DNA of 64,000 nt from Nymphaea colorata (taxonomy: Eukaryota > Streptophyta > Magnoliopsida > Nymphaeales > Nymphaeaceae): the NCBI RefSeq assembly GCF_008831285.2, contig NC_045145.1:22008802-22072801 (forward strand), written 5' to 3'. Below, in pieces: positions 22,305-51,930 of this stretch. Position 1 is the first letter of the stretch. Each line of letters starts with the position of its first letter. The translations under genes were made by a program, and so were the position numbers. The notes below the pieces were generated by a model that saw nothing but the letters and a program-made list of their open reading frames with translations, did not search any database and was not told the origin of the DNA.

Positions 22305-24938
22305 TTATTTGCCTTTTACATATTCCACCTGAAGGGTTAAATCATTGATTCCTGCATGGTGCAAGACATTAGCAACCTGTTGCTTTGTAGCTTTGTCACT
22401 TTCAGCAGATAGATGAAGATGGAAGGTTCCCACAATCTCTGTGTTTGTCAAACTCCATACATGAATGTTTTGAATATCACAAACACCCTTTAGCTTCATA
22501 ACGTCATTAATGGCTTCTTTTACTTCCTTTTCATGAAATCTGGGGACTCTTTGAAGCAATATCTCGGCAGAGTTCCTGAGCAGTGGTATCACAGAAGATA
22601 CTATCATGACTGAAATAAATATTGAACAAGCAGGGTCAGCGGCTAGCCATCCCTTGTACTTTATGAGAAGAGTTGAAATTACAACTCCTAAGCTCCCCAT
22701 TGTGTCAGCAAGGACGTGTAAAAATATTCCCTCCATATTGTGGTCGATATGATTATGCATCTTGGACCCTTTCTGCAAATTACTGTTCAAATCTCCTGGA
22801 TGTGAATGCTTATGCTGCAAGGAACAATGGGAGTGTGCATCAGGATGCACCATGATGCAATTCTCTGAAGGATTTCCATGGGAGACTTTCAAATTATGCA
22901 CCCCAACATGGCTCTGGTTATCATGAACATGGGAATGGGCATGTGCGTGGCCTTTTCCCTGGCTGGAACATGATTTCTCAGTGCAAGTGTCTTCCAGGTT
23001 GCTGCTATTTCTGTGGGCCTGCTGATGACTTTGAGTACCACTATATAACGAACTTTCAATGTGATGATTATCATGACGATGATGATCATGGTGATGATTA
23101 TCATGACAATGGTGATCATTATCATGACAATGGTGATGACTGGAACTTCTTGTCTCACACATGAATTCTCTTTCCTGATCATGGTCATGATGATGATGGT
23201 GATGGTCAACGTCACTGGCGACGTTGCAAATTTTCTCGTCATGAGGATCATTTCTGGAACCACATGTGCTTTTAGTCACAGACTGGTCATGTCTCCAGTT
23301 ACTATGGTCATCATGCTTGTGAGAGCAACCATGTTCATGTTCATGGGAATGGGAATGATGCCCATGAGAATGTGAGCATGCCCCAGCTCCACCATGAGCA
23401 TGATGATGCTCTTCATGGAAAAAAATCAAGCCAACCAAATTGACCACAAGGCCTCCAATAGACACCGACAACAAACTACCGGTGGAGATCTCCTGGGGAT
23501 CAAGAATCCTCTCAAATGACTCCACAACAATAAGAGCTCCAACCAATACAAGGAAAACTGCATTGACATAACCAGAAAGAACTTCAAATCTACCACGCCC
23601 AAAATTGAACTGCGAATTTCCAGGCAACCGCGAAATATATGAAGCATAGAGCCCAATGGCTAGAGCAGCACAATCGAACAACATATGACAAGCATCTGAG
23701 ATAAGGCCCAGGCTATTACTCATGAATCCCACAATAAACTCCACAAACATATAAAGAGTATTAATCAAAAGAAACAGAGCAATCTTTCTTGATTTCCTTT
23801 CACTCAGAATGTGGCGAATGGGACCCATGACCATCGAAAATAGAGACTCCGAAGAACCTGATCCCAATTCTGGAGATTTCGACAGTTCGGGACCCAATTC
23901 ATTAACTGCGACCCAGAGTGCAAAGCTAACTACTACGAAACCAAACAGAGAAAACTCAGAGAAGTAGAAGAGCTCCAAGACACAAGTACAGCACAAGAGA
24001 ACCAAAAACTCCCTTTCAGAAATTCTCTGTGAAGGCGAAGATCCAGCACCCCCTGAACGCTCTTCGCCATACAATTCAGTCAGAATGACACCAAAAAATA
24101 TTGAACAGAACAAAGGCCAAATCAGTCCTCCGAAACTAACGGCATCCGAACCCCAATTCCCCTGCAACCAACTCACAAACGCGAACGGAGAGAGAAAAGC
24201 CGAGGCAAACCAGAGGGAATATAACCGGACACCTTTCTTACCCAGCTGCTTCAGCGATCCCCAATTCGATCGCTCCAAGTACCCCAGATAACCCGAAGCG
24301 AAGGGGCAAACAATCCGTAGGATCCCAAAACACTTGAATGAATCTGAATACCAATTTATATAACTGGACGAGAAGCAATCGGTTCGATCCCAACCGAAGG
24401 CAAGAACAAGCAGAGCGAGAAGAAGAGAGGTGATACCAGAAACCCTTCGGAAGCGATCCCCATTGGCGACAGCCTTGGCGGCGAGGGAACCAGAGAAGTC
24501 CGCGAGGATGGTAGCGGCGGGCCCGGCGACGTGGAGCGACTGGAAGCGAAGGAGAAGGACGAGAGAGAGGAGGGCCCCCTTGACGGCGAGGGGGCGGAGG
24601 ACGGGAAGGGAGAGGGAGGGACGATGCTGCGAAGAGAAAAGTAGAGAGAGGATGAGGGAGGAGGAAAGGGTAAGGAGGAAGGAGAAGGGGAGGACAGACA
24701 GAGTTGGGGAGGAGTTGAGGAAGGGGTGGAGGGTGTAGAGGGAGAAGGTGGAAAGGAAGGTGGTGATGAAGAGAGGGGTGGTGGTGGCAGTGGCGGCGGC
24801 CGGTTGGCTGAAGCTGCGGCGACTGGAAGGCGTCGGCGTGGGGGTTGGGGTCAGGAGAGGCGGGTACAGCAAGTATGGTCGGGATTGACGGGCCGGGAGG
24901 GAGACTTTCAGAGACTTCTGGTGGCGGTGGTGGTTCAT
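22305..24938 (-). CDS. MTP12: MTP12-like (ZnT5-type) cation diffusion facilitator zinc transporter, intronless
   Basis: A single exon of 877 aa starts MNHHRHQKSLKV and ends VEYVKGK. The first ~370 residues hold many hydrophobic segments, the N-terminal extension that distinguishes MTP12/ZnT5 from ordinary CDF proteins. The CDF domain follows. The TMD2 zinc motif is His418-x3-Asp422 (SDACHMLFDC) and the TMD5 motif is His741-x3-Asp745 (HVLADTMGS), the HD/HD pattern of zinc-selective members. Between TMD4 and TMD5 lies a very long loop (about residues 506-731) packed with His, Asp and Gly. A cytosolic C-terminal domain follows (VWSLTNTEIVGTFHLHL). In Arabidopsis, MTP12 pairs with MTP5 to load zinc into the Golgi, and I infer the same role here. 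It is slightly longer than Arabidopsis MTP12 as I remember it. Truncated copies of this gene recur downstream as part of a tandem array. Confidence 0.93.
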   Translation of the reverse strand: MNHHRHQKSLKVSLPARQSRPYLLYPPLLTPTPTPTPSSRRSFSQPAAATATTTPLFITTFLSTFSLYTLHPFLNSSPTLSVLPFSFLLTLSSSLILSLLFSSQHRPSLSLPVLRPLAVKGALLSLVLLLRFQSLHVAGPAATILADFSGSLAAKAVANGDRFRRVSGITSLLLALLVLAFGWDRTDCFSSSYINWYSDSFKCFGILRIVCPFASGYLGYLERSNWGSLKQLGKKGVRLYSLWFASAFLSPFAFVSWLQGNWGSDAVSFGGLIWPLFCSIFFGVILTELYGEERSGGAGSSPSQRISEREFLVLLCCTCVLELFYFSEFSLFGFVVVSFALWVAVNELGPELSKSPELGSGSSESLFSMVMGPIRHILSERKSRKIALFLLINTLYMFVEFIVGFMSNSLGLISDACHMLFDCAALAIGLYASYISRLPGNSQFNFGRGRFEVLSGYVNAVFLVLVGALIVVESFERILDPQEISTGSLLSVSIGGLVVNLVGLIFFHEEHHHAHGGAGACSHSHGHHSHSHEHEHGCSHKHDDHSNWRHDQSVTKSTCGSRNDPHDEKICNVASDVDHHHHHHDHDQEREFMCETRSSSHHHCHDNDHHCHDNHHHDHHRHDNHHIESSLYSGTQSHQQAHRNSSNLEDTCTEKSCSSQGKGHAHAHSHVHDNQSHVGVHNLKVSHGNPSENCIMVHPDAHSHCSLQHKHSHPGDLNSNLQKGSKMHNHIDHNMEGIFLHVLADTMGSLGVVISTLLIKYKGWLAADPACSIFISVMIVSSVIPLLRNSAEILLQRVPRFHEKEVKEAINDVMKLKGVCDIQNIHVWSLTNTEIVGTFHLHLSAESDKATKQQVANVLHHAGINDLTLQVEYVKGK

Positions 24939-25059
24939 GGTGGTGGCCGTGGACGTGACGGTGGTGTTCTCACTCTCCCTCTACAGTGTCTCTGAGACCG
25001 CGGTTGGGTGGTGGTGGTGGTGGAAGCCGGGCTTCGGACGCCGGGAAGCAAAAGCAACT

Positions 25060-27590
25060 CGAAGTCAAGTCAAAAAGAGGGCGCCCCCGCGCCTTCTTTG
25101 GGGGTAGGGCCGACAATTCTTCGCACCGCAACGTCAAGCCGCCAATTACTTTCTGAATTACAAAGCTTTTGATTGTTTCTCTAGAAAAAAAAAAGTGATG
25201 GTCAATTGGAATTTATATAGCGCAAAATATGACATTTCAGAATTTAAAATACCACATGTACGTCGAAAAAAGGAACTAATTCCAACGAGACTGTGCCTAT
25301 CCCCATAGAAGATATTGGAGCCCATACATCTCCAACCTTTTCTGTTGATGGATCTTCTTTTGCCTTTGGCATTAGAAGTTGATGCTTGGTGCTGCTGTTG
25401 AACTTTATTTTGATGATGATTTCTCCAATCCCACTGGTAAACCAATCCACTAATCTCAAACTCCGCAGTTTTAATTTGTTCCACAGCTAGTCTTCTTCTT
25501 AAACTTTGTCCACATGCTTCTTATTTTCATCATGCTTAGTAACACCCATAATTTTTTTAGTAGCCGAAGAATATCTAATAGTGTCATTCTTTTCATAGCA
25601 AATGGTGGTACACTGCCCCGCACATAGGGCTGTTCCTTGAGTCGAACCAACTTGGGCTCAACTGGAACTTGTTAGGTAAAACTCTACTTGAACTCAACTC
25701 TTTAATAAACAAGTCGAGGTTGAGTAAAAAAATGAACTTGTTTAATTTAATGAGTTAAAAGTAAGCTAGGCAGGCTCAACTCGACTCATGGAGAATGAAC
25801 ATGTAAAAAATACTTTCATTTTTTATCACAAGGGAAAAGTTACCCTAACCAACCCACAGGTTCGGGGTGTAGGGGTTTAGGTTCCTCAGCATGTTACTTT
25901 ATAGTAAAAATAAGTTTTTATACATGGCTTCGCTAAGCTCCAACCGAATCTAGCTTGAGCTTAGCTAGGTTTGAGCTCTCTAAGCTCGAGCTGGAGCTTA
26001 CTAACTTGAGCTCGAGGCAACCTTAAGTTGTGGCTTATGCTGGCTTGCTCAACTCAAACTTGGCTCATGAACTGCCCTGCTAGTCGCACTACTCCCACTT
26101 CCTTCTACATGGAAAACGAACGAGGCACTTCACTGAGGATGGGAATGTCTCCTTTCTAAAGCTGCGATCGAGCTTGACAAAATTAATGAACATGAATGTC
26201 ATTGATAACAGTGCATCTACAATACTAAATCTAACAGCGTGATCCTACTTTTGTTAATAGATACCATAGTGACGGTTGCCTTTGTCAATGCATCATATTT
26301 GAATATTGTATATGCTTAGTGTATCCACTTTATTGGATCTTCATATATTTAGGTTCAAATTCTGGTTTAAGTATGAACGAAGAAAAGTTTGTATCGTGTC
26401 TGAATCCAAATGTACAATCTAAACTCGATCAAGGTATACCAAAAATTCGAATCAGATTCCAACTTTAATTTAAACCGAACATGAAAACATGTTAAGAACC
26501 GACTTGCCAAATGCAAATGTTATTACATCTATGAGATTTACTTAAAACTAAATCTCAAGATGAATCTGTAACCGTTCTGGATATTTGTTTAATTCTAAAT
26601 CCGAATCCAACTGAATGTCATTTCTTTAACTTGATTAATATCCAATTTCTTAATAAAATGTTAATTTTTTATATCTGATTTTGTTGAAATACTAGTTCTG
26701 TGAAAATTTCATTCAAATCTGACGTATTGACACCCCTAATTAAATAGGTCCCAAGAGCAACACAGCCGACCTTGACCTTTCACAAGGCTTGGACATACAA
26801 CACAATGCACAGACAATTTGTTTGATGGATTATCATGCAGTTAATATAGTTGCTGGAGTTTGGATGGATATACGGTGTACTATTTTATCAAGCTAACTAG
26901 GGTTGGTGATAGACTTTATTGCAGGCATACATTCCAGTAAAAACAACTATTTTCCTTCATATTTTGAGGAAAGGACATCTGCATCGGCCATTGTAGCCAT
27001 CACTCTAAACTTGCAAGGGTGAAAAAAAATTGCTGTAAGGTGAATATCATTGTTGCTATTACAAGTTGGTAGAGCCCAAAAGTTCACCTTGAAGGGCAGA
27101 ACTTTAAAAAGAAAAATACAATGGTAAAGAGGCACTGACATGCAAATAGTCAAATGGCTATGAGACACTAATATGCAAATAGAAGCAACTATTTTTGGGT
27201 TTTGTTAAGTATAATAAAGTTTGTTAAATGGCTTGCCTTGTATTCGGAAGGGTTATAGCTGTACTGGTAAATATCACACCTGCACACGCTCAATGTACGT
27301 AGATCCTGATCAAACAACTATCTGAGATAAACTGAAATAAAACTATTTAGTTAAGGATAACAATAATCAAATAATTGTTTGATTAGTAAATATGTTACTA
27401 ATAGATAGTTGTTTAAGCTATTTAAATGATTGATTATTAAGATATAATCGTACACATCTACCGATGTTTTGCGGTCATTTATTAAAATGAATGGTAAAAT
27501 GTTTTCCCATGCTTGTGTCACTTCTACCAATGTTTTTCGGTTGCCGGTAATAGGCGTATCGTTTGTAGTGATGCTTTTAGTTTATTAGTG
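25060..27590. other. Spacer of array unit 1 (MTP12 5' flank to MMP 5' flank)
   Basis: No gene. The left part is the MTP12 promoter side. The rest is a spacer that recurs in diverged and partly deleted forms around 31.3-33.6, 36.3-39.3 and 48.9-50.3 kb. It holds a MITE (25625-26079), a block resembling an hAT-like end near 26690-26745, and an MMP-proximal part shared by all units. Open frames here are short and unconserved. Confidence 0.7.
25625..26079. mobile_element. MITE, unit 1 copy
   Basis: The left end is TAGGGCTGTTCC and the right end is a degenerate inverted copy. The better copy at 36483-36940 shows ends TAGGGCTGTTC and GAACAGCCCTA. The interior is rich in GAGCTC/AACTCG words. I see no clear target duplication, probably because the element is old. 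It travels with the tandem unit. Confidence 0.6.
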
Positions 27591-27819
27591 TCATTAGTTA
27601 ACTTATGTGGTGCGTTGCGCAAACCAATGTGGTGTGTGCAATGACACATATATTGTCTGATTTAAGTAAGAAAAGATGCACCATGATTCTTTTAGAGAGA
27701 CATTTGATTCTATCAACTTTTGAAGCTGCTGAAATCAGCATGCATATACTTCTGCATGGAGTTACTTTAGATGTGGTTCTATGTAAGAGCCATGTGTTTC
27801 TTTGGTGTATTTTCCCCAT

Positions 27820-27946
27820 GATCAAGTTCCTCCAGTGCCCAAAATGGTTTCTACATTATCCTTTGTTACAATCCTCATGCTTGATCAAGTTCCTCCAGGT
27901 GCCCAAAATGGTTTCTACATTATCCTTTGTTACAATCCTCATGCTT
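27820..27946 (+). repeat. 63-bp tandem duplication in MMP pseudogene 1
   Basis: The block starting GATCAAGTTCCTCCAG at 27820 repeats at 27883 with one extra G. It covers the leader and the start of the signal peptide and breaks the frame there. Confidence 0.9.
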
Positions 27947-28324
27947 CTCGTCTAGACCAACTATATGGAGTGGGCTTCTGGTCACAATGGCGACTTCCAT
28001 TACTAGGCAGGGGCAGAATTCCTTAACCTTCTGGCTATGGCAAAGGACAAAGCCATAAAGTGCTCCCCTCCCTGAAAAGATATTTTCAACATTTCGGCTA
28101 TTTGGACACGGTTGCCGACAGAGGATTCTCTCTTGTTTTTTATGAAGATCTAGAAGCTGCCGTGAAGAAATACCAAGCGTTCTTCAGCCTGCCTCAATGC
28201 TACTGGTATAGTCGACACAGCAACAATGCACCAACTAATCCAGCTGAGATGTGGCGTACCAAACATAATCAAAGATCCAGTGCCGGCAAAATTCCACCAG
28301 ATTAATGTCACCGGCAACTCAAGT
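27844..28324 (+). pseudogene. MMP pseudogene 1, truncated (matrixin, M10A)
   Basis: It matches the 5' half of the intact MMP genes: signal peptide, propeptide (YFQHFGYLDTV) and the cysteine-switch region. It carries the 63-bp duplication, a TAG in the same place as in pseudogene 2, an extra stretch in SLPQCYW, and lacks the usual TATA box upstream (CTATGTAAG instead of CTATATAAG). It stops after the sequence for VTGNSS, where it is joined to a small MTP12 piece at 28325. The catalytic domain is absent. Confidence 0.9.
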
Positions 28325-28390
28325 GAAAGAACTTCAAACCTACCATGCCCAAAATTGAACTGCGAATTTCCTGGCAACTGCGAATTTCCA
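28325..28390 (-). pseudogene. MTP12 fragment 1 (66 bp)
   Basis: This piece matches the MTP12 gene around 23578-23640 (the TMD3 region, FGRGRFEVLS side). It is fused on the left to the truncated MMP pseudogene 1 and on the right to mid-spacer sequence matching about 26958. Two deletions removed the rest of this unit. Confidence 0.85.
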
Positions 28391-29270
28391 GTATCTTGAG
28401 GAAAGGACATTTGCACCAGCCACTACAGCTATCACTCTGAACTTGTAAGGGTGAAAAAAAAATTGCTGGTAAGGTAAATATCATTGTTGCTCTTACAAGG
28501 TGGTAGAGCCAAAGGTTCCCCTTGAAGGGTAGAACTTTAAAAATAAAAGCACAATGGTAAAGAGGCACCAGCATGAAAATAGTCAAATGGCTATGAGACA
28601 CTAATACGCAAATAATAGTAACTATTATTAAATTTTGTTAAGTATAATATAAAGTTTATTAAATGGCTTGCTTTGTATTCAGAAGGGTTATAGCTGTACT
28701 GGTAAATATCACACCTTCACACACTCAATGTATGTAGATCCTGATCAAACAACTATGTGGGATTAACTGAAATAAAAACTATTAACTAACATTTAGTTAA
28801 GGATAACAATGATAAAATAGTTGTTTGATTCGTAAATAGGTTATTGTTAGATAGTTGTTTAAGTTGTTTCAAACAATTGATTATTAGGATATAGTCATTA
28901 CACACAGTGTGGATACATTTACCAATGTTTTTCGGCCAACAAAAGTTTTTACCGAGCAAACCATCAGTAAAATGTTTTCCCATGCTTGTGTCACTTCTAC
29001 CAACGGTTTTCGGTTGCCGGTAATAGGCGTATTTTTTATTGATGCTCATCATTTACTAGTGTCATTAGTTAACTTATGTGTCGCGTCACGCAAACCAAAG
29101 TAGTGTGTGTCATTACACATGTATTGTCTGATTTATGTAAGAAAAGATGCACCATGATTCTTTTAGGGAGACATTGGATTCTATCAATTTTTGAAGTAGC
29201 TGAAATTAGCATGGATATATTTCTTTATGCAGTAACTTTAGATGCCATTGCTCACCTGGTTCTACATGCC
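28391..29270. other. Shortened spacer of array unit 2
   Basis: This matches the spacer from about 26958 to the MMP 5' flank of unit 1. It has no gene of its own. Confidence 0.8.
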
Positions 29271-29328: not shown

Positions 29329-30276
29329 ATGCCCAAAATGGTTTCTACATTATCCTTTGTTGCAATCCTCATGCTTTTGGTCCAGACCAACTATATGGAG
29401 TGGGCTTCTGGTCACAATGGCAACTTCCATTACTAGGCAGGAGCAGAATTCCTGCAACTTTCTGGCTATGGCAAAGGACAAAGCCATAAAGTGCTCCCCT
29501 CCCTGAAAAGATATCTTCAACATTTCGGCTATTTGGACACGGTTGACGACACAGGATTCTCTCTTGTTTTTGATGAAGATCTAGAAGCTGCCGTGCAAAA
29601 ATACCAAGTGTTCTTCAGCCTCAATGCTACTGGTATACTCGACACAGCAACAGTGCACCAACTAATCAAGCCGAGATGTGGCGTACCAGACATAATCAAA
29701 GATCCAGCGCGGGCAAAATTCCACTAAATTAATGTCACCGGCAACTCAAGTTCATCATTATACAGTCTCAGAAACGAACGTTGGCCACCATCCAACAGGA
29801 GACTATTGTATAATATCTCGGTGAACGGGCACATGCCATTTCGTATAGCAAATCTGAGGCCTGTCATCCATGAGGCATTTGAAACATGGGCTTTGTTCTC
29901 GCCATTTGACTTCACAGAGACTTCGATCGAGAGAATCGCTCAGTTGCGCATCGGATTCTACAGATGGCAGCACTTAAATTGTCCAATTTCGTTTGATGGA
30001 CCAGACGGCGTGCTCGCACACGCATTTTATCCGCCATCTGGGAAGCTTCACTTCAACGCAGATCGTATATGGGCGATGGACCCTGAGAGGTTGATGAACA
30101 CGAGAGAATCATACGACCTTCAATCGGTCGCCGTTCATGAGATCGGCCATCTATTGGGGATGGGTCATAGTACAGTTCCAGAAGCAATCATGTATCCTAG
30201 CTTGGATCCTCAAACAAGGAAGGTGGAGCTGCATGGCGATGATATTGCAGGAATCAATGCTATGTATCCTAGCTGA
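29329..30276 (+). pseudogene. MMP pseudogene 2, two nonsense codons
   Basis: The reading frame is collinear with the intact MMP genes from ATG to stop, but it holds TAG at 29434-29436 (CAG in the intact copies) and TAA at 29725-29727. I see no frameshift. The cysteine switch (PRCGVPD), the zinc site HEIGHLLGMGHS and the Met-turn EAIMYP remain. The TATA box is kept. Decay seems recent. Confidence 0.92.
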
Positions 30277-30592
30277 TTGATTCTTGGAGTTAATTCTTAC
30301 AAGGCTATGAATCCTTAGGCATAGTGATTCTTAGGGTTTTGACTAGGTTATGCATCCTAATCTCACTTGCCACATTTTTGTGACAAATTGTCACCCAATA
30401 TTTTTGTTAATCAATTTCTATTTTTTGTTGGCTCCTTCTCTCTCGTTCTCTCTCCCCCACAATTTGAATTGTAACCTATCCTGAGCCCTGAACCCATGAT
30501 GGTAGAATTAAGGATGTGAATGGATTAGATTCAAATAAGATATAGCCTTAAACCATATCCGCTTTTTCGGATAAACAGATATTCACCATGTT

Positions 30593-31320
30593 GACATTGC
30601 AAATTTTCTAGTCATGGTTGTAAGATTTGTGAAGACTACAAGGATAATTTCTTGAACCACATGTGCTTTTAGTTAGAGACTGGTCATGTCTCTAAGTCAC
30701 TATGGTCATCATGCTTGTGAGAGCAGCTATGTTCATGTTCATGTTCATGGGAAAGAATGTGAACATCACCCAGCTCCACCATGAGCATGATGATGCTCTT
30801 CATGGAAAAAAAATCAAGCCAACCAAATTCACCACAAGGCCTCCAGTAGACACCGGCAACAAACTACCGGTAGAGATCTCCTGGGGATCAAGAATCCTCT
30901 CAAATGACTCCACAACAATAAGAGCTCCAACCAATACAAGGAAAACTGCATTGACATAACCAGAAAGAAATTCAAACCTACCACGCCCAAAATTGAACTG
31001 CGAATTTTCAGGCAACCGTGAAATATATGAAGCATAGAGCCCAATGGCTAGAGCAACACAATCGAACAATATATGACAAGCATTTGAGATAAGGCCTAGG
31101 CTATTACTCATGAATCCCACAATAAACTCCACAAACATATAAAGAGTATTAATCAAAAGAAACAAAGGAATCTTCCTTGATTTCCTTTCACTGAGAATGT
31201 GTCGAATGGGTCTCATGACCATAAAAAATAGAGACTCCTCAGAACCTGATCCCAATTCTGGAGATTTCGACCGTTCGGGACCCAATTGATTAATAGCGAC
31301 CCAGAGACGAAACCAAACAG
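30593..31320 (-). pseudogene. MTP12 fragment 2
   Basis: It matches MTP12 from about 23220 (histidine loop) back to about 23955 (before TMD1). It starts at the shared junction with the hAT-like sequence behind MMP pseudogene 2. It keeps the TMD1-TMD4 region including SNACHILFDC, but most of the histidine loop is degraded, and both the N-terminal part and the C-terminal third are missing. Its right end runs directly into spacer sequence (GTTCGGGG). Confidence 0.93.
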
Positions 31321-33640
31321 GTTCGGGGTTTATATTCCTAAACATCTTACTTTATAGTAAAAATAAGTTTTTGTACATGGCTTGGCTAAGCTCCAACCGA
31401 ATCTAGCTTGAGCTTAGCCAAGTTTGAGCTCTCTAAGCTCGAGCTGGAGCTTACTAACTTGAGGTTGAGGCGACCTTAAGTTGCTGGCTCTGCTCAACTC
31501 AAACTCGGCTCATGAAGAGGCCTACTACATGGAAATTGAACAAGGCACTTCAGTGAGGATGAGAATGTCTACTTTCTAAAGCTGCGATCGGGCTTGACAA
31601 AATTAATGAACATGAATGTCACTAATAGTAGTGCATCTACAATATTAAATCTAACAGCGTGATCCTAATTTGTTAATAGACATCATAATGACGGTTTCTG
31701 ATGTCAATGCAACATATTCGAATCATGTATATGCTTTATTGTCTCCACTTTATTTGATGTTTATATATTTAGGTTCAAATTTTGGTTTAAGTATGAACGA
31801 AGAAGAGTGTGTATCGTATCTGAATCCAAATTAACAATCTAAACTCGATCAAAGGATACCAAGCATTCGAATCAGATTCCAACACTAATTTAAACCGAAC
31901 CTGAGCAGACATGTTAAGAACCGACTTGCCGAATGCAATTGTTTTACATCTATGAGATTTACTTAAAACTAAATCTCAAGATGAATCTGTGTCCGATTTG
32001 GATATCGTTTTAATTCTAAAATCCGAATCCAATAGGATGTCATTTCTTCAATTTGAGTCATATCCAATTTCTTAATCAAATATATATGATTTTGTTGAAA
32101 TACTAGTTCCGTCGAATTTTTTATTCAAATCTGATACATCAAACACCTAATTAAATAGGGCACAACAATTACACCACTAATCATGACATCACACGGCTTG
32201 GAGTTACAGAACAATGCACAGCCAATTTGCTTGATGGATTATTATGGGTGAACAACGAGTCGAATAGCTCAAGATCGACTTGTTAAAGCTCAGCTCGTGA
32301 ATGAGTTTGAGCCGAGTCATTTGCTTAATGAGTCGAGCTCGAGTTCATGAGTCGACTCGTTCAAATCATCGAGTTGAGTTCGAGCTCAACACATAACTGC
32401 CGAGTCGAGCTTGAACCTTAATCAAGTTTGTTGAGCCTCAATCAAGTAGATATATTCAAACGATTTTACGAGTTTGTCGAGTCTTAATCGAGTTGAGCTT
32501 GAGCTCAACATGTAACGATGAATATCAATTCTATTCAAACAAGTTTGTCGAGCCTTAATCGAGTCGAGCTCGAGTTCAAGACATAACTGTTGAGTTGAGT
32601 TCAAGCTACTTCCGTCGAGCCATTTTCGAGCCCGAGGTTTCATTAGTCGAGCCGAGCTCGAGCTAACTGAACTTGGGCTCGACTCAGCTCATGTTCACCC
32701 CTATGGATTATTGTGCAGTTAATAGAGTTGGTGAGGTTTCGATGAACATACGGTGTACTATTTTATCAAGCTAGCAAGGGTTGGTGATAGACGTTATTGC
32801 AGGCATACATTCTAGTAAAAACAATAATTTTAGTTCATATTTTGAGGAAATGCAACTGCCACTGTAGCTATCACTCTAAACTTGTAAGGTGAAAAAAAAA
32901 AATTCTGGTAAGGCAAATATCATTGTTTCTATTACAAGTTGGTAGAGAAAAAAAGGTTTCTTGAAAGGCAGAACTTTAAAAAAAAAAACCGCACCTATTT
33001 TTGGGTTTTGTTAAGTATAATAAAGTTTATTAAATGGCTTGCTTTGTATTCTGAAGGGTTATAGCTGTACTGGTAAATATCACACCTTCACATACTCAAA
33101 TAATGTAGATCCTGATCAAACAACTATCTGGGATAAACTGAAATAAAACTATTAACTAACATTTAGTTAAGGATAACAATGATCAAATAGTTATTTGATT
33201 GGTAAATAGGTTATTGTTAGATAGTTGTTTAAGTTGTTCAAGCAATTGCTTATTAGGGTACAGTCATTATATTAGAGTGTGTGGACACATTTACCGATGT
33301 TTTTTTGGCCGACAAAAGTTTTTACCCAGCAAAACCATCGGTAAAATGTTTTCTGATGCTTGTGTCACTTCTACCAACGTCCCAACAATAGAAGTATTTT
33401 TTTGTAGTATGCTCATCATTTATTAGTGTCATTAGTTAACTTATGTGGTGCGTTGCGCAAACCAAAGTGGTGTGTGCCATGACACATATATTGTCTGATT
33501 TAAGTAAGAAAAGATGCACCATGATTCTTTTAGAGAGGCATTTGATTCTATCAATTTTTGAAGCTGCTGAAATTTGCATGCATATATTTCTGCATGGAGT
33601 AACTTTAGATGCCATTGCTCACCTGGTCCTACATGCCCTC
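31321..33640. other. Spacer of array unit 3
   Basis: It corresponds to the unit 1 spacer from about 25860 on, so the left part including half of the MITE is missing. It carries an extra MITE insertion (32244-32704). No gene is visible. Confidence 0.8.
32244..32704. mobile_element. hAT-type MITE with 8-bp target duplication
   Basis: The target duplication GGATTATT lies at 32236-32243 and 32705-32712. The ends are ATGGGTGAACA and TGTTCACCCCTAT, inverted copies of each other with one missing base. The interior is built of GAGTCGAGCTCGAG-type words. It interrupts the spacer only in this unit, so it came in after the units had separated. An 8-bp duplication fits hAT. Confidence 0.88.
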
Positions 33641-33647
33641 TATATAA
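33641..33647 (+). promoter_or_regulatory. TATA box of MMP pseudogene 3
   Basis: TATATAAG, in the same position as in the other MMP copies. Confidence 0.7.
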
Positions 33648-33695
33648 GAGCCATGTGTTTCTTGGCTGTATTTCCCCATGGTCAAGTTCCTCCTG

Positions 33696-34649: not shown

Positions 34650-34920
34650 TTGATTCTTGGAGTTAATTGTTACAAGGCCATGAGTCCTTAGGCATAGTGA
34701 TTCTTAGGGTTTTGACTAGGTTATGTATCCTATTCTCACTTGCCACATTTTTGTCACCTTTGTGACAAATTGTCACCCTACATTTTTGTTAATCAATTTC
34801 TGTTTTCTGTTGGCTCTCTCTCTCTCACAATTTGAACTGTAATGTGAATGGATTAGATCCAAATCAGATATACCCTTAAACCATATCTGCTTTTTCGGAT
34901 AATCAGATATTCACCATGTT

Positions 34921-40396: not shown

Positions 40397-40683
40397 TTAA
40401 TTCTTGGAATTAATTCTAACAAGGCTTTGAATCCTTAGGCATAGTGATTCTTATGGTTTTGACTGCGTTCTGCATCCTACTCTCCTTGCCACATTTTTGA
40501 GACAAATTGTCACCCTATATTTTTGTTTATCAATTTCTATTTTTGTTGGCTCCCTCTCTCCCACAACAAATTGAATTGTAACCTGCATGATGGAAGAATT
40601 AGGGATGTGAATGGATTAGATTCAAATCAGATATACCCCTAAACTATATGTGCTTTTTCGGATAATCAGATATTCGCCATGTT

Positions 40684-41841: not shown

Positions 41842-42002
41842 TATTAGACGTTATGCAAATCTAGTCGATATAGGCAAGTTGAATCTTTCCAAAGATCTTA
41901 CCGTTGTAAAATCCCTCTTTTCTTTCCTTTTTCTGAGAATAAGATAACACTTGGACGTTATGATTAATCAAATTCCAGTTTTCTTCCATACATTGTTTAT
42001 CA
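41842..42002 (+). repeat. 5' LTR of the copia element (shortened)
   Basis: 161 bp. It lacks about 36-40 bp present in the 3' LTR, including the TATAAATATT stretch. It begins TATTAGACG rather than TG and ends TATCA. Confidence 0.9.
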
Positions 42003-43900
42003 TGGTATCAGAGAGCCTGGTCGAAGTCGACCAAGGCAAGCACGGGCAGCATCATCTTCATCTCCCGCAGGTGTTTCTTTGCAGCAGAACACTGCAGAAC
42101 CTTCTTCTCTGTTCAACAACAGTCCTGCACTCTTTTTTTTCTCCTACACCCACCACCACCTGCCAACTTCATAAATTCGCCGTTTTTTCCACCGACCATC
42201 TCTCACCGTGAGACTCTATAGGAACCATCGTTTTTCCGTTGGGCTTCCAACGGTCCAGTGCTCGACCGAATCCGACACCTGTGCTGGTCGGAATCACACT
42301 TTTTCCGGCAGCCTACCCCTGTGCGGTCCCCTGTTTTGGGCAAGAAGTCCCTGTTTTGGGCGAGAAGTTCCTTGCTTCAACTGACTCCGACTCTACTTGT
42401 CTCCTCGCTTAAGGGAAAGTGATCAGACTGCCTGACTGCCTGATCAGTGAAGAACTTTATGTGAATGCCCTTATTGCAGACCTAATGGACCAGATGCACA
42501 ATCCCACCAGTGATGGACGTTTTTCCCATGGTGGAGAGTAGCCTCAACATGGTATGATGAAGACAATCCATTTTATCTCAATCATTTTCGGATAATCCTG
42601 GTACTGTTCTTGCATTAATGGGTGAAAACTATGAAGTTTGGCGTTGGCTTTGCCAGCCAATGAACTTGGTTTTGTAGATGGTTTCATTCCTAAGCCAACG
42701 TCTCCTAAATCTCTTGTTGTTTCCTGGGAGCGATGCAACAATATGGTCTTGTCATGGGTGCTGAATTCTCTTCATAAAACCTTGTCGTCAACAGTGATTT
42801 ATGCTAACAACGCAGTCATGTTTGGACTGAACTTAAAACTCGTTTTTCTCAGTCCAATGCTCCTAGACTTTATCAGATACAACTACAGATTATTAACTGC
42901 AAACAATTGCAGTCTTCCATTAGTGTTTATTACACTCAGCTTAAATCTCTATGAGCTGAGTATGATTCATATGTTATTTTGCCTACATGTGATTGTGGTG
43001 CCATGCGACAAGTTAAGGATATATATGAACAACAACGTTTACTTGAATTTTTAATGGGGCTAAATGAAAGCTACAATGCTATTCGTAGCCAAATCCTCCT
43101 TGTGGAGCCAACACCTTCCATTCCACATGCTTATTCTTTACTTGTTCAAGAAGAGCGTCAACGAGATGTCCATATTTCTCTCCCATCCCAAAACATTTGT
43201 GCTGCAGCCATTCAATGACAAAATAATGAGAGGGACCTTAAGTTTAAAGGCAAATGACATATGCAATGTGAGCATTGTGGGAGAATGGGGCACACTAAGG
43301 CCCGATGTTATCACATTCATGGTTTTCCTAAGAGGGGCGTCTCTAATTCTAAAAGCCAGCAACTTAAGGTAAACTCTTCAACTTATGATGCTTTATTGCC
43401 AACTCATTCACCATCAAAACCTCGAACCGATGGCGTCAGCTTCACCCCAGATTTGTACTGCCAATTCATGGATTTATTAAACACACAAACTCCCAAGGTG
43501 AACATTGCAGGTATGATATCCCAACCTGTTGCTTGTTTTGTTTATTCACCAAGATGGATTATAGATACCGGAGACACCCATCACATGGCAAGTTTCGTTT
43601 CTATTCTCTCTTTTCCTATTCGAGTAGATTATAACCCTGTTAAAATGCCTAATGGATCAACAACACCTGTCACTCACACAGGACAGGTTTGGTTAAATCC
43701 ACTTCTCACGTTATCCAATGTTCTTTGTGTCCCAACCTTTTCCTTTAATCTTGTTTCAGTTCCTAAACTTGTAGCTGAAAATAACTGTGATGTTATTTTT
43801 AATGATTCTTGTTGCATTGTTCAGGACCGTCACTCGAAGAGGAAGATTGGGCGGGGTAAATTGGAGAATGGCCTATACGTTTTGGAGATTGAGAAGCTGC

Positions 43901-46900
43901 TAGGGATGTCAATGGATCGGATTCGGATCACCGATCCGAATCGTCTTTAAAAAATCGGATATGGTAACCAATTTAATATCCGAATAAGAAATCGGATCGG
44001 ATTCGGATTTAAGAATTAACATCCGAATGGCTGAACTCAACAAAATAGACATTTTTAAAAATATGAAAATTAATCGTAAATAAATATATTTAATACAAAA
44101 AAACAGCTAAACTCATAAAATTGTTTTATTTATCAAATTATCAATTATTTTATTTAATCAATCAATTTAATTATTTTGTATAATCATATAATAAGTCTAA
44201 AAGTCTTAGGTATTTGATATATAACACATAATTCACAAATTTAAAAACAAAAATCTTTAATTAGTAGGAAAATAACAAATTGTTTGATTTAACAAATTAT
44301 ATGATTTTATTAAATAATACAACAATTTTACGTAAAAAAAAAACAGCTATTGCAATGAAGCTAAGAGGATTAACCCAAGGAGTTAGTATCATGAAAGTTT
44401 GACATTATTGAACATATTTTTTACGGATGAAATGCAAATTTTTGTAATTAACACATCCTTTTGTAATTATTTGTCTAACTATTCAAACATATCATTTGTT
44501 AAAACATGCAACCTCATAAAAAAATTATTTAGTTGATAAACTAGTTGTTTTAGATAAATATTTAAAAAAAGATAACTGGTCAAAAAATGTACTTGAAAAT
44601 AATATAACACATCCTTTTCCTAACTTAAAGACATAGAAATCAAATATGACGAATTTTGAGTATGAAGAACTTATTGAGAAAATAGATAAGTTAACAGTTA
44701 AAACATCTTAAGCAACTCAGTCAAAATCAAGTAATAAATATTTGTTCATAAAAAAAATTATGAAAATGTAAAAGATCATAATAAAATTATTTATCCAAAG
44801 AACTTAGGAATAACACTCAACAATATTTTACAACTTGTTAAATTAAAATCACTTAAAAAAGATCAAAATAAATAAATAGGAACTAAGAAGTTTATTTGAA
44901 CACAAAAAATAAATATTAGAGTTAAAACTTTCATAAAAGATGAATACGATGTCACAAGACAAGATGATAAGTCAATTCCTTAATAAAAATTTCAGTACTA
45001 AACCATATAAAATCACATGAAGGAAGAAGTAATCTAACTTTTACTAAAATATTTATAGAAGAAAAAAATTATGGCTACCTTCCAATCAATATATTCTGAA
45101 ATTAAAGATAAGTTTTATATTTAAAAAAAAAAGAACTGAAAATTTTTAGTTTAGCGATATGATATTTGGATCCGAGTTTAGTTTAAGCCCACCCAAATCC
45201 AACCCACAACCCACAAAACCCAGCCCGCCCCTTTCGTTTGCCTTGAAAATGGCAAAATTGCAGTGCCGCTGCAGCAGGAAGAGAGTGAGAGGGAGAGAAC
45301 CAGAGACAGGAGATCGAGAAATAGAATGAAAGAGTGAGGAAGGGAGCACGAAAGACGGAGAGAGCACTAAGCAGGGCTGCAGGCAGCAGGAAGGAGGTCT
45401 GTAGAGAAGAGGAGAAAGAAGAATGTGAGGAAAAAGGACACAAGCAGACACAACGGTCCCCAATCACCAGAAGCGGAAGAAGAATATAGTAAAAAGCCCA
45501 TAAATCATAATCAAATTCTTCTCCTGTGATCCTTCACCTTGTTGGTCAGTATTTTTTTTCTCTGTTGTTTCGGGGATGATTCATTTCCGTCCGTCGATCT
45601 TTTTGCAGACCCTGCGGTGATTCAGCAGTTCAGCTATAAGAGGCCACCATGTATAAGCAGGTTTCCCTCTTGTTTTGATGCTTCATTCTTATTATCAACA
45701 AATTGTTTGTGAGGATGCTCATTGGTTTTAAGGTTTCAAGGCCAAAAGGTTTCTTGGTTAGGATTTAAATATGGATACTTTCATGAGTATATTATCTTGC
45801 TTGTTTGCACACTTTGTGTTTACACAGACTCAGCCATCATAGAGCTACAAAAAATACACTGCTTTTGTTGTTGGTCAAGGTAAATATTTAAAAAATAGAG
45901 TATTGTGATGAAGACTTTGTACAGTGTTCTGCTTACATTGGTTCTGCCTCAATTAGGTGATTACTGGTTGCAAATTTATGTGATTTTTTTCTGATTAGTA
46001 ACGTTTGAAACCTTTGCTTTAGCTTGCCTTTTCTCACTTGAAGAAAAACACGCTTTACGACTTTTCTCATTGTATTTCTTTCTTGTTGTGAAGTTTGATA
46101 GGGAACAAGTGGAGTGGGTGACGTTCAGAGTCTTATGTTAAGAGTCAATGCATTATTATTTTGGGCAATGGTTTTGAATAATGACACCTGATATAAACCA
46201 AATGAGCGACCTGATATAAACCAACTGAGCGCAATGATTGTATCCATATCATACACGACCTGCAATTGAGAAAGTTGTCCACCTTACTAGCAGTGATGGG
46301 AAAATACACAGCTAAACTTTTGTTTCATATCATAGTTTTGTTTTGAGAATTAAGGTTTTTGCTTCTTTCTCACTAATTACTTTCATTTGTATGTTATAAC
46401 AGTTCAAGTGTAAATGAGTCTTGAGTTCTTTCAAAGAGATTCCATCAAGTTTCTTTGACAACCTCAAGTGCCAGAAGACTCACTAAATTTAATGATTATG
46501 AAGTACAAGAATTGAGGCGTTGAAAGCTTTAGACTGTATAGTTTTTTGCAGATGCCTAGATATTTAATTGAAACTTATTAGGCAGTCTGGCGCGCCCTTT
46601 ATGCTTTGGGCGTTTTTTTGTTTTTTGTTTTTTTTAAAAAAACTCATTGGTAATTAACGTCCATGGAGGCTTGGATTAACGTTCTTGGAGGCTTGGTAAA
46701 AAAATACATGATACTTTGTTAGGCAGGCAGAATGTGCAGCTATTGTAGAGACAATGTCTTAGATATTGCCTAGAGCCTAGTGGGCCATTTCTTGAGGTGT
46801 GAGAAACAAGAAGTGGTGGAATGAATTTTTTTAGCAATTTAAAAGTTAGTTTTGGATGCCAAATTTGAAAGTCTTAAGATGAGAATAGGAACTTTACATA

Positions 46901-47250
46901 TAAAATTTGGATTCGGATTGAAATCGGATAATGAAATAAAAAGTCAGATTCGGATTGAAATCGGATATTGAAATAAAAAGTCGGATTCGGATTGAAATCA
47001 GATATTGAAATAAAAAGTCGGATTCGGATTTCAATCCGATTTCAGATTTTTGAAAGCAGATTCAGATTCGGAACTAGATTTTGATTTAAAAGTCGGATTC
47101 GGATCAGATTCGGATATGGTTTTAAAAATCAGATTCGGATATTTTTTAGATTTTTTTTCATCCGAATTCGAATCTGAAAATATGTATATCCGAAAAGTCG
47201 GATATGATAAAGAGTATATCCGATCCGAATCTGATTCGTTGACATCCCTA
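43901..47250. mobile_element. hAT-like non-autonomous element nested in copia
   Basis: The ends TAGGGATGTCAA and TTGACATCCCTA are perfect 12-bp inverted repeats, with further imperfect GGATTCGGAT inverted similarity inside. The flanks share AGCTGCT on both sides, or 6 of 8 bases if TA is counted in the element, so the duplication boundary is uncertain by one or two bases. It splits the copia frame between protease and integrase. The interior is very AT-rich (44000-45150), with a GA/CT-rich block near 45250-45480 and no transposase frame that I can recognise. Confidence 0.82.
46909..47019. repeat. Three 37-bp subterminal repeats
   Basis: Units start at 46909, 46946 and 46983, each beginning (A/G)GATTCGGATTGAAATC and ending AAAAAGTC. 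They lie near the right end of the hAT-like element, where transposase-binding repeats are expected. Confidence 0.85.
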
Positions 47251-48384
47251 GCTGCTGCCCATGTAACGCTTGATTCTTCAACCTTATGGCATTACCGTCT
47301 TGGTCATCCTTCATTCTCTAGATCCACATGGGTATATTTGATGCATTACAAGCATGAAACCTTTTTTGCAATTCAAAATTTTATCTCTATGGTGGAAAAT
47401 CAGTTTCACACAAGGATAAAAAAGATTCGTAGCGACAATGGAGCATAATTTTTTTCAAATAATATGACACAATTTTTGCAAAACAAGGGCATAGAAAGAC
47501 AACACTCTTGTGTCGGCACTCCACAACAAAATGGAGTTGTCGAACGAAAGCATAAGGATCTTCTCAACATAGCTCGCGCTCTTAGATTTCAAGCTAAACT
47601 TCCTTTAAAATTTTGGGGCGATTGTGTCTTAACTGCAGCATATTTGTTAAATCGTTTGCCTACAAAACCATTAAAGGACAAAACTCCTTTTAAAATTCTT
47701 CATGGCAATCGTCCAACTTATAATTATATTCGGACTTTCGGATGCTTATGTTATGCCTATAATATTTCAAAACGTCATAAATTTGATGCTCGTTCGTGAA
47801 AGTGTGTCCTCATTGGATATCCGTTTGGACAAAGTGCTTATAAACTTTACGATCTTGAAACACATGAAGTCTTTACAAGTCGTGATATTTCAACATTGTT
47901 ATTAAAGGATTTTGTGATTCAGACTGGGCGTGCCCAATGACAAGGAGATCAACTTCTGGATTTTCTATATTTATGGGAGACAACCCAATATCATGGAAGG
48001 TTAAGAAGCAATCTACCGTATCAAAATCTTCAGCAGAAGCAGAGTATAGAGCCATGGCTCTAGCCACTTGTGAAATGACTTGGATAAAATATATTCTTAA
48101 AGATTTTGGAATCATTCATGAGCAGCCTATGGAGTTACATTGTGACAATAATGCAGCCAAACATATCGCTGCAAACCCAGTGTTTCATGAAAGGACTGAG
48201 CATATAGAGATTGACTGTCATGTTGTTCGCGAAAAAATCCAAAGTAAAGAAATCTGCACCAAACACGTAAGCTCTGAAAATTAAGTTGCTGATATCTTTA
48301 CAAAGCTTTTAGGAAAGGAATCATTTTTCATGTTAAGAGGTATGTTGGCCTTAATTGACCCAGGAGCTCCAACTTGAAGGGGAG

Positions 48385-48581
48385 TATTAGACGTTATGCA
48401 AATCTAGTCGATACGGGCAAGTTGAATCTCTCCAAAGATCTCACCGTTGTAAAATCCCTCTTTTCTTTCCCTTTTCTCAGAATGAGATAACGCTTGGATG
48501 TTATGATCATTCTTGTATAAATATTGTAATTCGTAAACAATGTAATTAATCAAATTCCAGTCTTCCATACATTGTTTATCA
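48385..48581 (+). repeat. 3' LTR of the copia element
   Basis: 197 bp, TATTAGACG to TATCA. It has a TATA-like TATAAATATTG that is missing from the 5' LTR. Otherwise it is close to the 5' LTR. Confidence 0.92.
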
Positions 48582-48586
48582 GAGGG

Positions 48587-48890
48587 TGTAGAGGGAGAAG
48601 GTGGTGATGAAGAGAGGGGTGGTGGTGGCAGTGGCAGTGGCCGGTTGGCTGAAGCTGTGGCGACTGGAAGCGTGGGGGTTGGGGTCAGGAGAGGTGGGTA
48701 CGGTAAGTATGGCCGGGATTGATGGGCCGGGAGGGAGACTTTCAGAGATTTCAGGTGGCGGTGGTGGTGGCCGTAGATGGAACGGTGGTGTTCTCCCTCT
48801 CCCTCTACAGACTACAGTGTATCTGCGACCGCAGATGGGAGGTGGTGGTGGTGGTGGAAGGCGCGCTTCTGTAGCCGGGAAGCAAAAGTG
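48587..48890 (-). pseudogene. MTP12 fragment 4, remainder (N-terminal and 5' flank)
   Basis: It continues fragment 4 after the copia insertion: the low-complexity start of the protein and 5' flank. A small deletion has removed the ATG (the TTCATGG of the intact gene is missing). Confidence 0.85.
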
Positions 48891-48899
48891 ACTCGAAGT

Positions 48900-50370
48900 C
48901 AAGTAAAAAAGAATGTGCGCACTTCCCCATAGTTCTTCATACCGCAACGTCAAGGCGCCAATTAGTTTCTGAACTACAAATGTTTTGTTTGTATCTGTAG
49001 GAAAAAAAATACAGCCATGGTTGAATCTATTCATCCCAAACTCTGTAGTTTTAATAATTTGTTCCATAGCTAGTCTTCTTCTTAAACTTTGTACACTTGC
49101 TTGTTATTTTCACCATGCTTAGTAACACCCATTTTTTAGTAGCCGAATAATATCTAATAGCGTAATTTTTTCCACAACAAATGGTGGTGCATTGCCCTTC
49201 ACATAGGGCTGTTCCATGAGTCAAACCAACTTGAGGTCGACTCGAATTTGTTAGGTAAAACTTTATTTGAACTCAACTCTTTAATAACAACTCGAGGTTG
49301 AGTAAAAAACTGAACTTGCTTAATTTAATGAGTTGAGATTGAGCTAGGCAGGCTCAACTCGATTAAACACAATTAAGCTCGTGGAGAAAGAATACGTGTA
49401 AAATACTTCCTTTTTTTCTCGCAAGTGAAAAGTTACCCTAATGGTCTTCTTTGAGGTAGCCAATCCCACGTTCAGGTTTAGGTTCCTAAACATCTTACTT
49501 TATAGTAAAAATAAGTTTTTATACATGGCTTGGCTAAGCTCCAACCGAACCTAGCTTGAGCTTAGCCAAATTTGAGTACTCTAAGCCCGAGCTGGAGCTT
49601 ACCAACTTGTGCTTGAGGCGAGCTTAACTTGTGGCTTATGCTTGTTCTGCTCAACTCAAACTCGGCTCATGAACAGCCCCACTAGTCGCAGTACTCCCAC
49701 TTCCTTCTACATGGAAAACGAACGGCGCACTTCAGTGAGGATGAAAATGTCTTCATTCTAAAGCTACGATTGGCCGAAAAACATCAACAGATGCAATAAC
49801 ATTGGCATTTGGCAAGTCGGTTCTTAACATGTCTGTTTAGGTTCGGTTTAAACTAAAGTTGGGTTCTGATTCAAATGTTTAGTATAGTTTGATCGAGTTT
49901 AGACTGTAAATTTGGATTCAGATGCGATATAACTAGTTGTTTGATTCGTAAATAGGTTATTGTTAGATAGTTGTTTAAGTTGTTCAAACGGGTACAGTCA
50001 TTATATAGAGCGTGTGGAGTGTGGACATATTTACCGATGTTTTTCAGCCGACAAAAGTTTTTACCAAGCAATCCATCGTTAAAATGTTTTCCCATGCTTG
50101 TCACTTCAACCAACGTCCGGGTAATAGGCGTATTTTTTGTAGTGATGCTCATCATTTATTAGTGTCATTAGTTAACTTATGTGGTGCGTCACGCAAACCA
50201 AAGTGGTGTGTGCCATGACACATATGTTGTCTTATTTAAGTTAGAAAAGATGCACCATGATTCTTTTAGAGAGGCATTTGACTATCGATTTTTGAAATAG
50301 CTCCAATTAGCATATGATATATTTCTTCATGCAGTAACTTTAGATGCCATTGCTCACCCGGTTCTAAGTG
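48900..50370. other. Spacer of array unit 5
   Basis: A shortened spacer with the MITE at 49204-49681. From about 49780 sequence is lost or rearranged relative to unit 1, part appearing in the other orientation (CAAGTCGGTTCTTAACATG). No gene. Confidence 0.7.
49204..49681. mobile_element. MITE, unit 5 copy
   Basis: Left end TAGGGCTGTTCCATGAG, right end CTCATGAACAGCCCCA. Same family as 25625-26079 and 36483-36940. Confidence 0.65.
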
Positions 50371-50429: not shown

Positions 50430-51392
50430 ATGCCCACAATGGTTGCTACATTATCCTTTCTTGCAATCCTCATGCTTTTGCTTCAGACCAACTGTATGGA
50501 GTGCGCTTCTGGTCACATTGACAACTGTCACATTGACAACTTCCATTACCAGGCAAGGGCAGAATTCCTGCAACTTTCTGGCTATGGCAAAGGACAAAGC
50601 CATGAAGTGCTCCCCTCCCTAAAAAGATATCTTCAACATTTTGGCTATTTGGACACGGTTGCCGACACAGGATTCTCTGGTGTTTTTGATGAAGATCTAG
50701 AAGCTGCCGTGCAGAAATACCAAGCGTTCTTCAGCCTCAATGCTACTGGTATACTCGACACAGCAACAGTGCACCAATTAATCCAGCCGAGATGTGGCGT
50801 ACCAGACATAATCAAAGATCTAGCGCTGGCAAAATTCCACCACCGGATAAATGTCACTGGCAACTCAAGTTCATCACTGTACCGTATCAGAAATAGCCGT
50901 TGGCCACCATCAAGCAGGAGTCTCTTGTATAATATTGAAGAGAACGAGCACATGCCATTTCCTATAGAAGAGCTGAGGCCTGTCTTCCGTGAGGCATTCC
51001 AAACATGGGCTTTGTCCTCGCCATTCGGCTTCAGAGAGACTTCGACCGACAGAATCGCTCAGTTGCACATCGGATTCTACAGAGGGCAGCACCACGCAAG
51101 TTGTCCTCCATTTGGCGACTTGCTCGCACATGCATCTTATCCACCACATGGGATGCTTCACATCAACGCAGATTATGTATGGGCGATCGACCCTGAGATC
51201 TTGAAGAACACGGAAGAATCGTACGATGTTCAATCGGTCGCCCTTCATGAGATTGGCCATCTATTGGGGTTGGGTCATAGTACAGTTCCAGAAGCAATCA
51301 TGTATGCTACATTGGATCCTCAAACAAGGAAGGTGGAGCTGCATGGCGATGATATTGCAGGAATCAATGCTATGTATCCTCGGTCTAGTTGA
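50430..51392 (+). CDS. Matrix metalloproteinase (matrixin, M10A), intact copy 5
   Basis: 320 aa, single exon, no lesion. The signal peptide is MPTMVATLSFLAILMLLLQ. The propeptide follows, with the cysteine switch at Cys122 (QPRCGVPD). The catalytic domain has His273, Glu274, His277 and His283 in HEIGHLLGLGHS and the Met-turn in EAIMYA. Relative to copy 4 it has a short internal duplication (GHIDNCHIDNFHY) after the signal peptide and an extra His (FHHRINVTG). It lacks a C-terminal membrane anchor, so a secreted soluble protease is expected. It is the last unit of the array, and the hAT-like element downstream is unbroken here, marking the original right edge. Confidence 0.93.
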   Translation: MPTMVATLSFLAILMLLLQTNCMECASGHIDNCHIDNFHYQARAEFLQLSGYGKGQSHEVLPSLKRYLQHFGYLDTVADTGFSGVFDEDLEAAVQKYQAFFSLNATGILDTATVHQLIQPRCGVPDIIKDLALAKFHHRINVTGNSSSSLYRIRNSRWPPSSRSLLYNIEENEHMPFPIEELRPVFREAFQTWALSSPFGFRETSTDRIAQLHIGFYRGQHHASCPPFGDLLAHASYPPHGMLHINADYVWAIDPEILKNTEESYDVQSVALHEIGHLLGLGHSTVPEAIMYATLDPQTRKVELHGDDIAGINAMYPRSS

Positions 51393-51605
51393 TTGATTCT
51401 TGGAGTTAATTCTTACAAGGCTATGGATCCCTAGGCATAGTGATTCTTAGGGTTTTGACTAGGTTATGTATCCTATTCTCACTTGCCACATTTTTGTCAC
51501 CTTTGGGACAAATTGTTACCCTATATTTTTGTTAATCAATTTCCATTTTTTGTTGGCTCTCTCTCTCCCAACCCATCCTGAGCCCTGAACCCATGATGGT
51601 AGAAT

Positions 51606-51930
51606 TAGGTATGTGAATGGATTAGATTTGAATTAGATATATCCTTTGTGTGCTTTTTCGGATAATCAAATATTCATATTCGAATACAAACAAAAAAAGA
51701 CATCCAAATTCAATATTTGAACCAAATTTGGCATATTCTCAAAATGTATTTGTTTAAAAATAAATTCAATCAAAATCTGTATCCGAAATTGATCCCATAT
51801 GTGTGTATATTGAATCTCAACCCAAATCCGAATCTGATCTGATTTCTTAATTAGATTTTTTTTTAATATCTGATTTTTTGAGAATGGTTCAATTGGATAT
51901 CCAATTGAAATCGAATATATTGACATCACC
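51606..51930. mobile_element. hAT-like MITE at the right edge of the array, unbroken copy
   Basis: Left end TTAGGTATGTGAATGG and right end TATTGACATCACCAAG are imperfect inverted copies, with the interior rich in GGAT/ATCC words like the hAT element at 43901-47250. Behind MMP copies 2, 3 and 4 only the left ~75 bp is present and is joined to MTP12. Confidence 0.7.

Follow-up and report, generated by a model that had tools for sequence, protein, structure and literature searches.

The maize P1-wr cluster, in the parts of its description drawn on here, comprises eleven near-perfect 12-kb repeats framed by chimeric genes; two genes were fused by end-joining with filler DNA, and the amplification steps were reconstructed (Goettel and Messing 2009, PMC2686159). 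In the cited sections on plant matrix metalloproteinases (MMPs), the tomato Sl-MMPs are described as intronless, five MMP genes each are counted in tomato and Arabidopsis, and plant MMPs are given a PRCGxxD cysteine switch, an HExGHxxGxxH zinc site and the plant motif DLESV (PMC4465618). Arabidopsis MTP12 is presented, in the excerpt used, as a cation diffusion facilitator zinc transporter with a His-rich loop region that forms a Golgi heterodimer with MTP5 (PMC10932157). The stretch analyzed here (the window), 64,000 nucleotides of the water lily Nymphaea colorata (NC_045145.1, here contig C8:22008802-22072801), contains a tandem array composed of MMP genes, pieces of an MTP12-like gene and a hAT-like element. 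The array very probably arose from a single non-homologous join, which made an MTP12/MMP duplication at the edge of an MMP array and was followed by amplification, deletion and exchange. Searches of titles and abstract openings found no composite MTP12/MMP array in the literature, and MTP12 combined with metalloproteinase returned only an unrelated cancer paper.

Self-comparison of the window revealed five head-to-tail units (U1 to U5), all in one place. Three junctions between the hAT-like element and MTP12, located behind MMP2, MMP3 and MMP4, respectively, and the unjoined counterparts of their two sides are as follows.

30577 to 30605, + strand: junction J2; hAT-like side to 30585, filler at 30586 to 30592, MTP12 from 30593
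34905 to 34933, + strand: junction J3; filler at 34914 to 34920, MTP12 from 34921
40668 to 40696, + strand: junction J4; filler at 40677 to 40683, MTP12 from 40684
23220 to 23243, + strand: counterpart of the break point in intact MTP12, at about codon 587 of 891, in the His-rich part
51606 to 51931: unbroken hAT-like miniature inverted-repeat transposable element (MITE) behind MMP5, from TAGGTATG to CATCACCA

The hAT-side word AGATATTC stands at 30577, 34905 and 40668, with one further occurrence at 8277. The MTP12 word begins at 30593, 34921 and 40684, and its counterpart in the intact gene is at 23220; exact matches to this word are limited to 23220, 34921 and 40684, since copy 2 (30593) has one base changed (GACATTGCAAATT). 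A 29-base pattern derived from the three junction copies, with up to 3 mismatches permitted, matched the window three times, each time with 0 mismatches, and was found 0 times in 100 shuffles. Its 28-base core has 3 matches in the whole genome (407.8 Mb, 783 contigs), all without mismatch, and 0 in the control. When aligned, the break is identical in J2 to J4: the hAT side runs to ATATTC[A/G], the 7-base filler CCATGTT follows, and MTP12 begins with GAC[G/A]TTGCAAATT. Word search, pattern search and alignment thus bear out the proposal of one junction repeated behind MMP copies 2, 3 and 4; the break positions could have differed among the copies, and they coincide on both sides, within the stretch of MTP12 that encodes the His loop and within the hAT-like element, of which approximately the first 70 bases are kept. 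Some of the filler bases may derive from MTP12 by mutation, because the corresponding bases of the intact gene are CACTGGC.

The junctions also share changes on both of their sides. On the hAT side, an insertion of approximately 6 bases is common to J2 to J4 and absent from all four unbroken copies (MMP5 and three copies outside the window). In a tail alignment of seven copies, the junction trio has 6 fixed columns (5 from one insertion and 1 substitution), the highest number among all of the three-copy groupings computed, with a runner-up of 4. On the MTP12 side, 24 bases that keep the reading frame occur in each of the three junction remnants (with 1, 0 and 2 changes, respectively) but are missing from the intact gene; a search of the 274-kb range, which comprises the window with flanks, at up to 5 mismatches found them only in these remnants. 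In addition, three substitutions set all of the MTP12 remnants apart from the intact gene. Because the join, the insertion of approximately 6 bases and the 24 MTP12-side bases are shared, a single origin of J2 to J4 followed by amplification is well supported. The unjoined state is seen on both sides, with the element unbroken in four copies and MTP12 in a single intact gene, and the unbroken element in the three outside copies polarizes the junction.

The remaining MTP12 pieces and the insertions within the array are listed below.

22305 to 24980, - strand: intact MTP12-like zinc transporter gene; 891-codon open frame, first ATG at 24938 to 24936, Pfam Cation_efflux at 2e-43
25444 to 27881: spacer of unit 1 from MTP12 to MMP1, partly repeated in units 2 to 5
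28325 to 28391, - strand: 60-base MTP12 piece (28325 to 28384, matching the MTP12 copies) with its end briefly repeated; located after MMP1 and before unit 2
30593 to 31306, - strand: MTP12 remnant of unit 3; 92.0% over 30641 to 31306 versus 23244 to 23918, three stop changes
32243 to 32703: unit-3-specific insertion, a hAT-type MITE by its ends, with an 8-base target duplication TGGATTAT
34921 to 36299, - strand: MTP12 remnant of unit 4 with adjoining spacer; 5' end present, internal part missing
40684 to 41841, - strand: MTP12 remnant of unit 5, first part; 94.9% over 40731 to 41726 versus the intact gene
41842 to 48581, + strand: Copia-like long terminal repeat (LTR) element in the unit 5 MTP12 remnant, with target duplication GAGGG
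48582 to 49009, - strand: second part of the unit 5 MTP12 remnant, comprising the 5' portion and spacer

The leftmost MTP12 is the sole full-length match in the genome search, and its best solved relative is Zinc transporter 7 (9.9e-65). It has the marks of the family, namely a cation diffusion facilitator domain, a long N-terminal part and a His-rich loop; its assignment to MTP12, and not to another long ZnT5/7-like member, is a prediction from length and family match. The claim that only this copy is whole stands, and the later remnants are damaged elsewhere as well. The unit 3 remnant is without its 5' part, the unit 4 remnant is without approximately 505 bases, and the unit 5 remnant is without approximately 370 bases and has a retrotransposon inside. 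Frameshifting indels occur in the aligned part of all three, several each in units 3 and 4 and one lost base in unit 5. In the almost star-like MTP12 tree, the intact branch measures 0.006 versus 0.035 to 0.056 for the remnants, which fits the expectation for one constrained gene with decaying copies. The remaining genome matches to MTP12 are more distant family members or weak matches; short MTP12 fragments with 88% and 58% protein identity were also observed at C10:6344423-6344715.

The claim that every later MTP12 is truncated at the same base held for three of the four copies, and three of the four expected junctions are visible. Between MMP1 and MMP2 there is none, and only the 60-base piece at 28325 to 28384 occurs there. 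It shows 90 to 95% identity over 60 bases with three MTP12 copies, the closest being that of unit 5 (95%), and 93.6% over 47 bases with the unit 4 copy. The piece could be left over from an MTP12 copy that has since disappeared, or it could be templated filler. The junction between MMP1 and MMP2 was probably deleted.

Several observations weigh against a single origin of the junctions and subsequent decay of the copies. The 24 bases may have been lost from the intact gene rather than added by the join. In the tail tree, branches that would separate the junction copies have supports of 38 and 54; the tree gives no strongly supported junction group, so the case for one origin rests on the join and the indels. 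Furthermore, 29 of the 68 private remnant substitutions (30593 to 41390) are synonymous and 39 are other changes, an excess over the neutral 23 to 29%; the binomial P lies between 0.0002 and 0.0097 and varies with the transition bias. Any one of three causes could be sufficient to produce this excess: conversion by the intact MTP12, biased mutation or a period of constraint. It is very unlikely that the excess goes back to a time when the 3'-truncated copies were expressed and retained, perhaps as a shortened MTP5 partner or as a small-RNA source against MTP12; if it did, the array would have tied MMP copy number to zinc transport. The remnants are presumably without function.

The units are mosaics. 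Divergence between units (Kimura two-parameter [K2P] distance) is 0.04 to 0.21 in every measured segment but one, a 116-base MTP12 stretch (41727 to 41842 and 35759 to 35874) with a K2P of 0 between units 4 and 5 and 2 differences (0.017) versus unit 1. The adjoining segments differ by approximately 7 to 11% between units 4 and 5, and this short identity may possibly reflect recent conversion. Among 52 informative sites in the alignment of U2 to U5, the pairing of U3 with U4 is favored upstream (11/14), while that of U4 with U5 is favored in the catalytic part (19/24). The site patterns switch 18 times versus 32.9 expected, and none of 20,000 shuffles gave a number as low. Trees including outside copies support both pairings with bootstrap values of 100, U3 with U4 in the upstream block and U4 with U5 in the catalytic block. 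From these trees, rows with coverage below 0.6 were excluded (M110 in both the upstream and the N-terminal block, M9 in the upstream block), and units without a match in a block were left out of that block's tree. With MMP6 as the outgroup, the N-terminal part was not usefully rooted (supports of 34 to 48). Unit 4, which goes with unit 3 upstream and with unit 5 in the catalytic part, indicates exchange or conversion between copies. The predicted course, one tandem duplication followed by amplification and deletions, is supported, but plain amplification of one unit leaves the mosaics unexplained, and unequal exchange or gene conversion is needed too.

The starting point was probably a row of tandem intronless plant MMP genes next to MTP12, in which several genes had a hAT-like MITE of approximately 330 bases behind them. 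One non-homologous join, presumably by break repair that left the 7-base filler, would have connected a break approximately 70 bases into the MITE of the MMP unit adjoining MTP12 with a break in the His loop of MTP12. The product would be a direct duplication in the order intact MTP12, MMP, junction, 3'-less MTP12, MMP and unbroken MITE. Transcription of MTP12 runs in the direction leading away from the MMP genes, so that each new copy would lack the MTP12 3' end. Unequal exchange through homologous pairing of the units, approximately 5 to 6 kb long, probably then multiplied the junction. The five units and three junctions visible today would be the outcome of subsequent deletions, transposon insertions and exchange among the units.

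A hot spot, in which the hAT element cuts itself or a fragile repeat breaks, might have produced three independent joins at the same bases. A transposon does lie at one side of each junction, and hAT elements are able to cause rearrangements. However, the break is approximately 70 bases inside the element and not at its end, and the filler, the hAT-side insertion and the 24-base difference are shared as well, a repetition that is not expected of independent joins and makes this explanation highly improbable. An assembly product deserves equally little credence: tandem repeats are difficult to assemble, but the units are 0.04 to 0.21 apart in K2P distance (bar the 116-base segment), they have private deletions and private insertions with target duplications, and the 274-kb range (ext -30000 to 244000, where ext is the C8 position minus 22008801 and equals the window position inside the window) contains no N bases. 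The private mutations and unit-specific transposon insertions, among them the unit 3 MITE, which is absent at the equivalent place in units 1 and 4, argue against such a product.

It is also very unlikely that the MTP12 event generated the entire MMP cluster. In the window, every close MMP copy lies within an MTP12-bearing unit, and the outside copies diverge to an extent similar to that among the window units. Nevertheless, the units M8, M9 and M10 (ext 66178, 92044 and 96580) have the same MMP with an unbroken hAT element and no MTP12; the first of these sits just right of the window. MTP12 tblastn matches in the 274 kb are confined to 22308 to 48740, with none right of ext 48740, and the genome search likewise lists no MTP12 piece right of that position in the MMP cluster. 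Because the outside MMP-hAT units carry no MTP12, the capture appears to be a local event confined to the left margin of a more extensive MMP array, and this array is probably the older of the two. Movement of the MTP12-MMP block by transposon capture (Pack-type or Helitron) instead of direct tandem duplication would agree with the hAT-like element at one edge; the units are nevertheless all head to tail at one locus, and the genome contains no further copy of the junction, so that such a transfer has hardly any likelihood. A single join at the edge of the array, followed by copying of its junction, is the reading retained here.

The MMP genes of the window are as follows.

27882 to 28324, + strand: MMP1, 3'-truncated pseudogene, cut at 28324
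29338 to 30276, + strand: MMP2, full length, two in-frame stops
33705 to 34649, + strand: MMP3, one in-frame stop; cysteine switch reads PRRG, cysteine lost
39464 to 40396, + strand: MMP4, open; PRCGVPD and HEIGHLLGLGH, Matrixin domain
50439 to 51392, + strand: MMP5, open; PRCGVPD and HEIGHLLGLGH, Matrixin domain
53997 to 55177, + strand: MMP6, decayed copy of another subtype
56386 to 56826, + strand: MMP7 fragment, Matrixin at 1.9e-16

One part of the original prediction did not hold, and its scope was too small. The MMP genes were not amplified whole, since MMP1 is truncated, MMP2 and MMP3 contain two stops and one stop, respectively, and only MMP4 and MMP5 of the first five are open; these two are predicted plant MMPs (M10A), with a Matrixin domain, zinc site and cysteine switch. 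Nor is the window the full array. Searches by tblastn with five MMP queries yielded 21 merged MMP-like loci at 27.8 to 150.4 kb, all on the + strand, the last being a 90-base fragment. The five window units form the left end of this cluster, which runs approximately 86 kb beyond the window (ext 66178 to 150354, C8:22074979-22159155) with nested larger duplications and further MMP subtypes. In total, nine open frames of at least 230 codons contain the zinc motif, and eight of them retain PRCG, the exception being the portion of MMP3 downstream of its stop. MMP4 and MMP5 read DVQSV before the zinc site and so lack DLESV; open copies of the close types read D[VL]QSV, and three of a distinct type at ext 135078 to 147110 keep DLESV. 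The genome search with MMP5 gave 38 matches (a number of matches, not of genes), 27 in the cluster and 11 elsewhere, with three on C3, one on C4, one on C12 and six near C8:21.19-21.22 Mb. The ratio of nonsynonymous to synonymous substitution rates (dN/dS) between MMP4 and MMP5 has an overall value of 0.63, with 0.87 for the N-terminal and 0.53 for the catalytic part, and it reaches 0.99 in pairs involving the pseudogene MMP2. The MMP4/MMP5 values give no sign of positive selection on the catalytic domain. The expansion to 21 loci may merit a separate study.

The hAT-like element follows several MMP genes and is approximately 330 bases long. As predicted, it is unbroken behind MMP copy 5, and it is also unbroken in the three outside copies (ext approximately 67350, 93217 and 97735). 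Its left end is TAGGTATG, TAGGAATG or TAGGGATG in MMP5, M8 and J4 and is decayed in M9 and M10, while its right end is CATCCCTA in M8, M9 and M10 and CATCACCA behind MMP5. The terminal inverted repeats are near TAGGG..CCCTA, with TAGG kept at the left end in some copies, and TAGGG..CCCTA-like termini are typical of hAT. The flanking 8 bases are equal at 7 of 8 positions in the 93.2-kb copy (GGTAAAAT, AGTAAAAT); each of the three remaining unbroken copies reaches 5 of 8, and a related element at ext 84278 to 84739 has perfect 8-base flanks (ATCTGGAG). Dispersed relatives amount to at least 44 matches on 11 contigs, with 40 of 1260 candidates scored. The termini and dispersed relatives make the hAT label plausible, although just one of the four unbroken copies shows a clear target duplication. 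The LTRs of the Copia-like element in unit 5 are decayed (92.7% over 124 bases). Elsewhere in the window, a Copia-like element at 58903 to 63877 has LTRs that are 81 to 88% alike and a reverse-transcriptase piece, a separate integrase piece lies at 58045 to 58800, and a near-identical tandem repeat of approximately 250 bases (98.4 to 99.6%) occupies 1451 to 1944.

The event is of a known kind, and the locus is a good example of it. It shows a plant gene cluster growing at its edge, where a fortuitous join takes in a portion of an unrelated neighboring gene and the junction is then copied. The history of the genes is obscured by exchange among the units, that of the junction is not, and the junction indels are more informative on common origin than gene trees. 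Compared with the plant MMPs in the cited sections, the open copies are alike in their uninterrupted frame, cysteine switch and zinc site, whereas the close types read D[VL]QSV in place of DLESV and, against five genes each in tomato and Arabidopsis, 21 MMP-like loci lie in one cluster here, 8 of them with both motifs in an open frame of at least 230 codons. The likeness to Arabidopsis MTP12, as far as the excerpt describes it, is at the family level and comprises the cation diffusion facilitator family and the His-rich loop. Among the precedents found, the maize P1-wr cluster is the closest in the parts of its description used, as it is also a plant head-to-tail gene array with a filler-bearing join of two genes. 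In P1-wr, however, the chimera is a gene made from two paralogues and the repeats are almost perfect, whereas here the captured neighbor is an unrelated transporter gene whose pieces are broken, and the units differ by several to about 20%.

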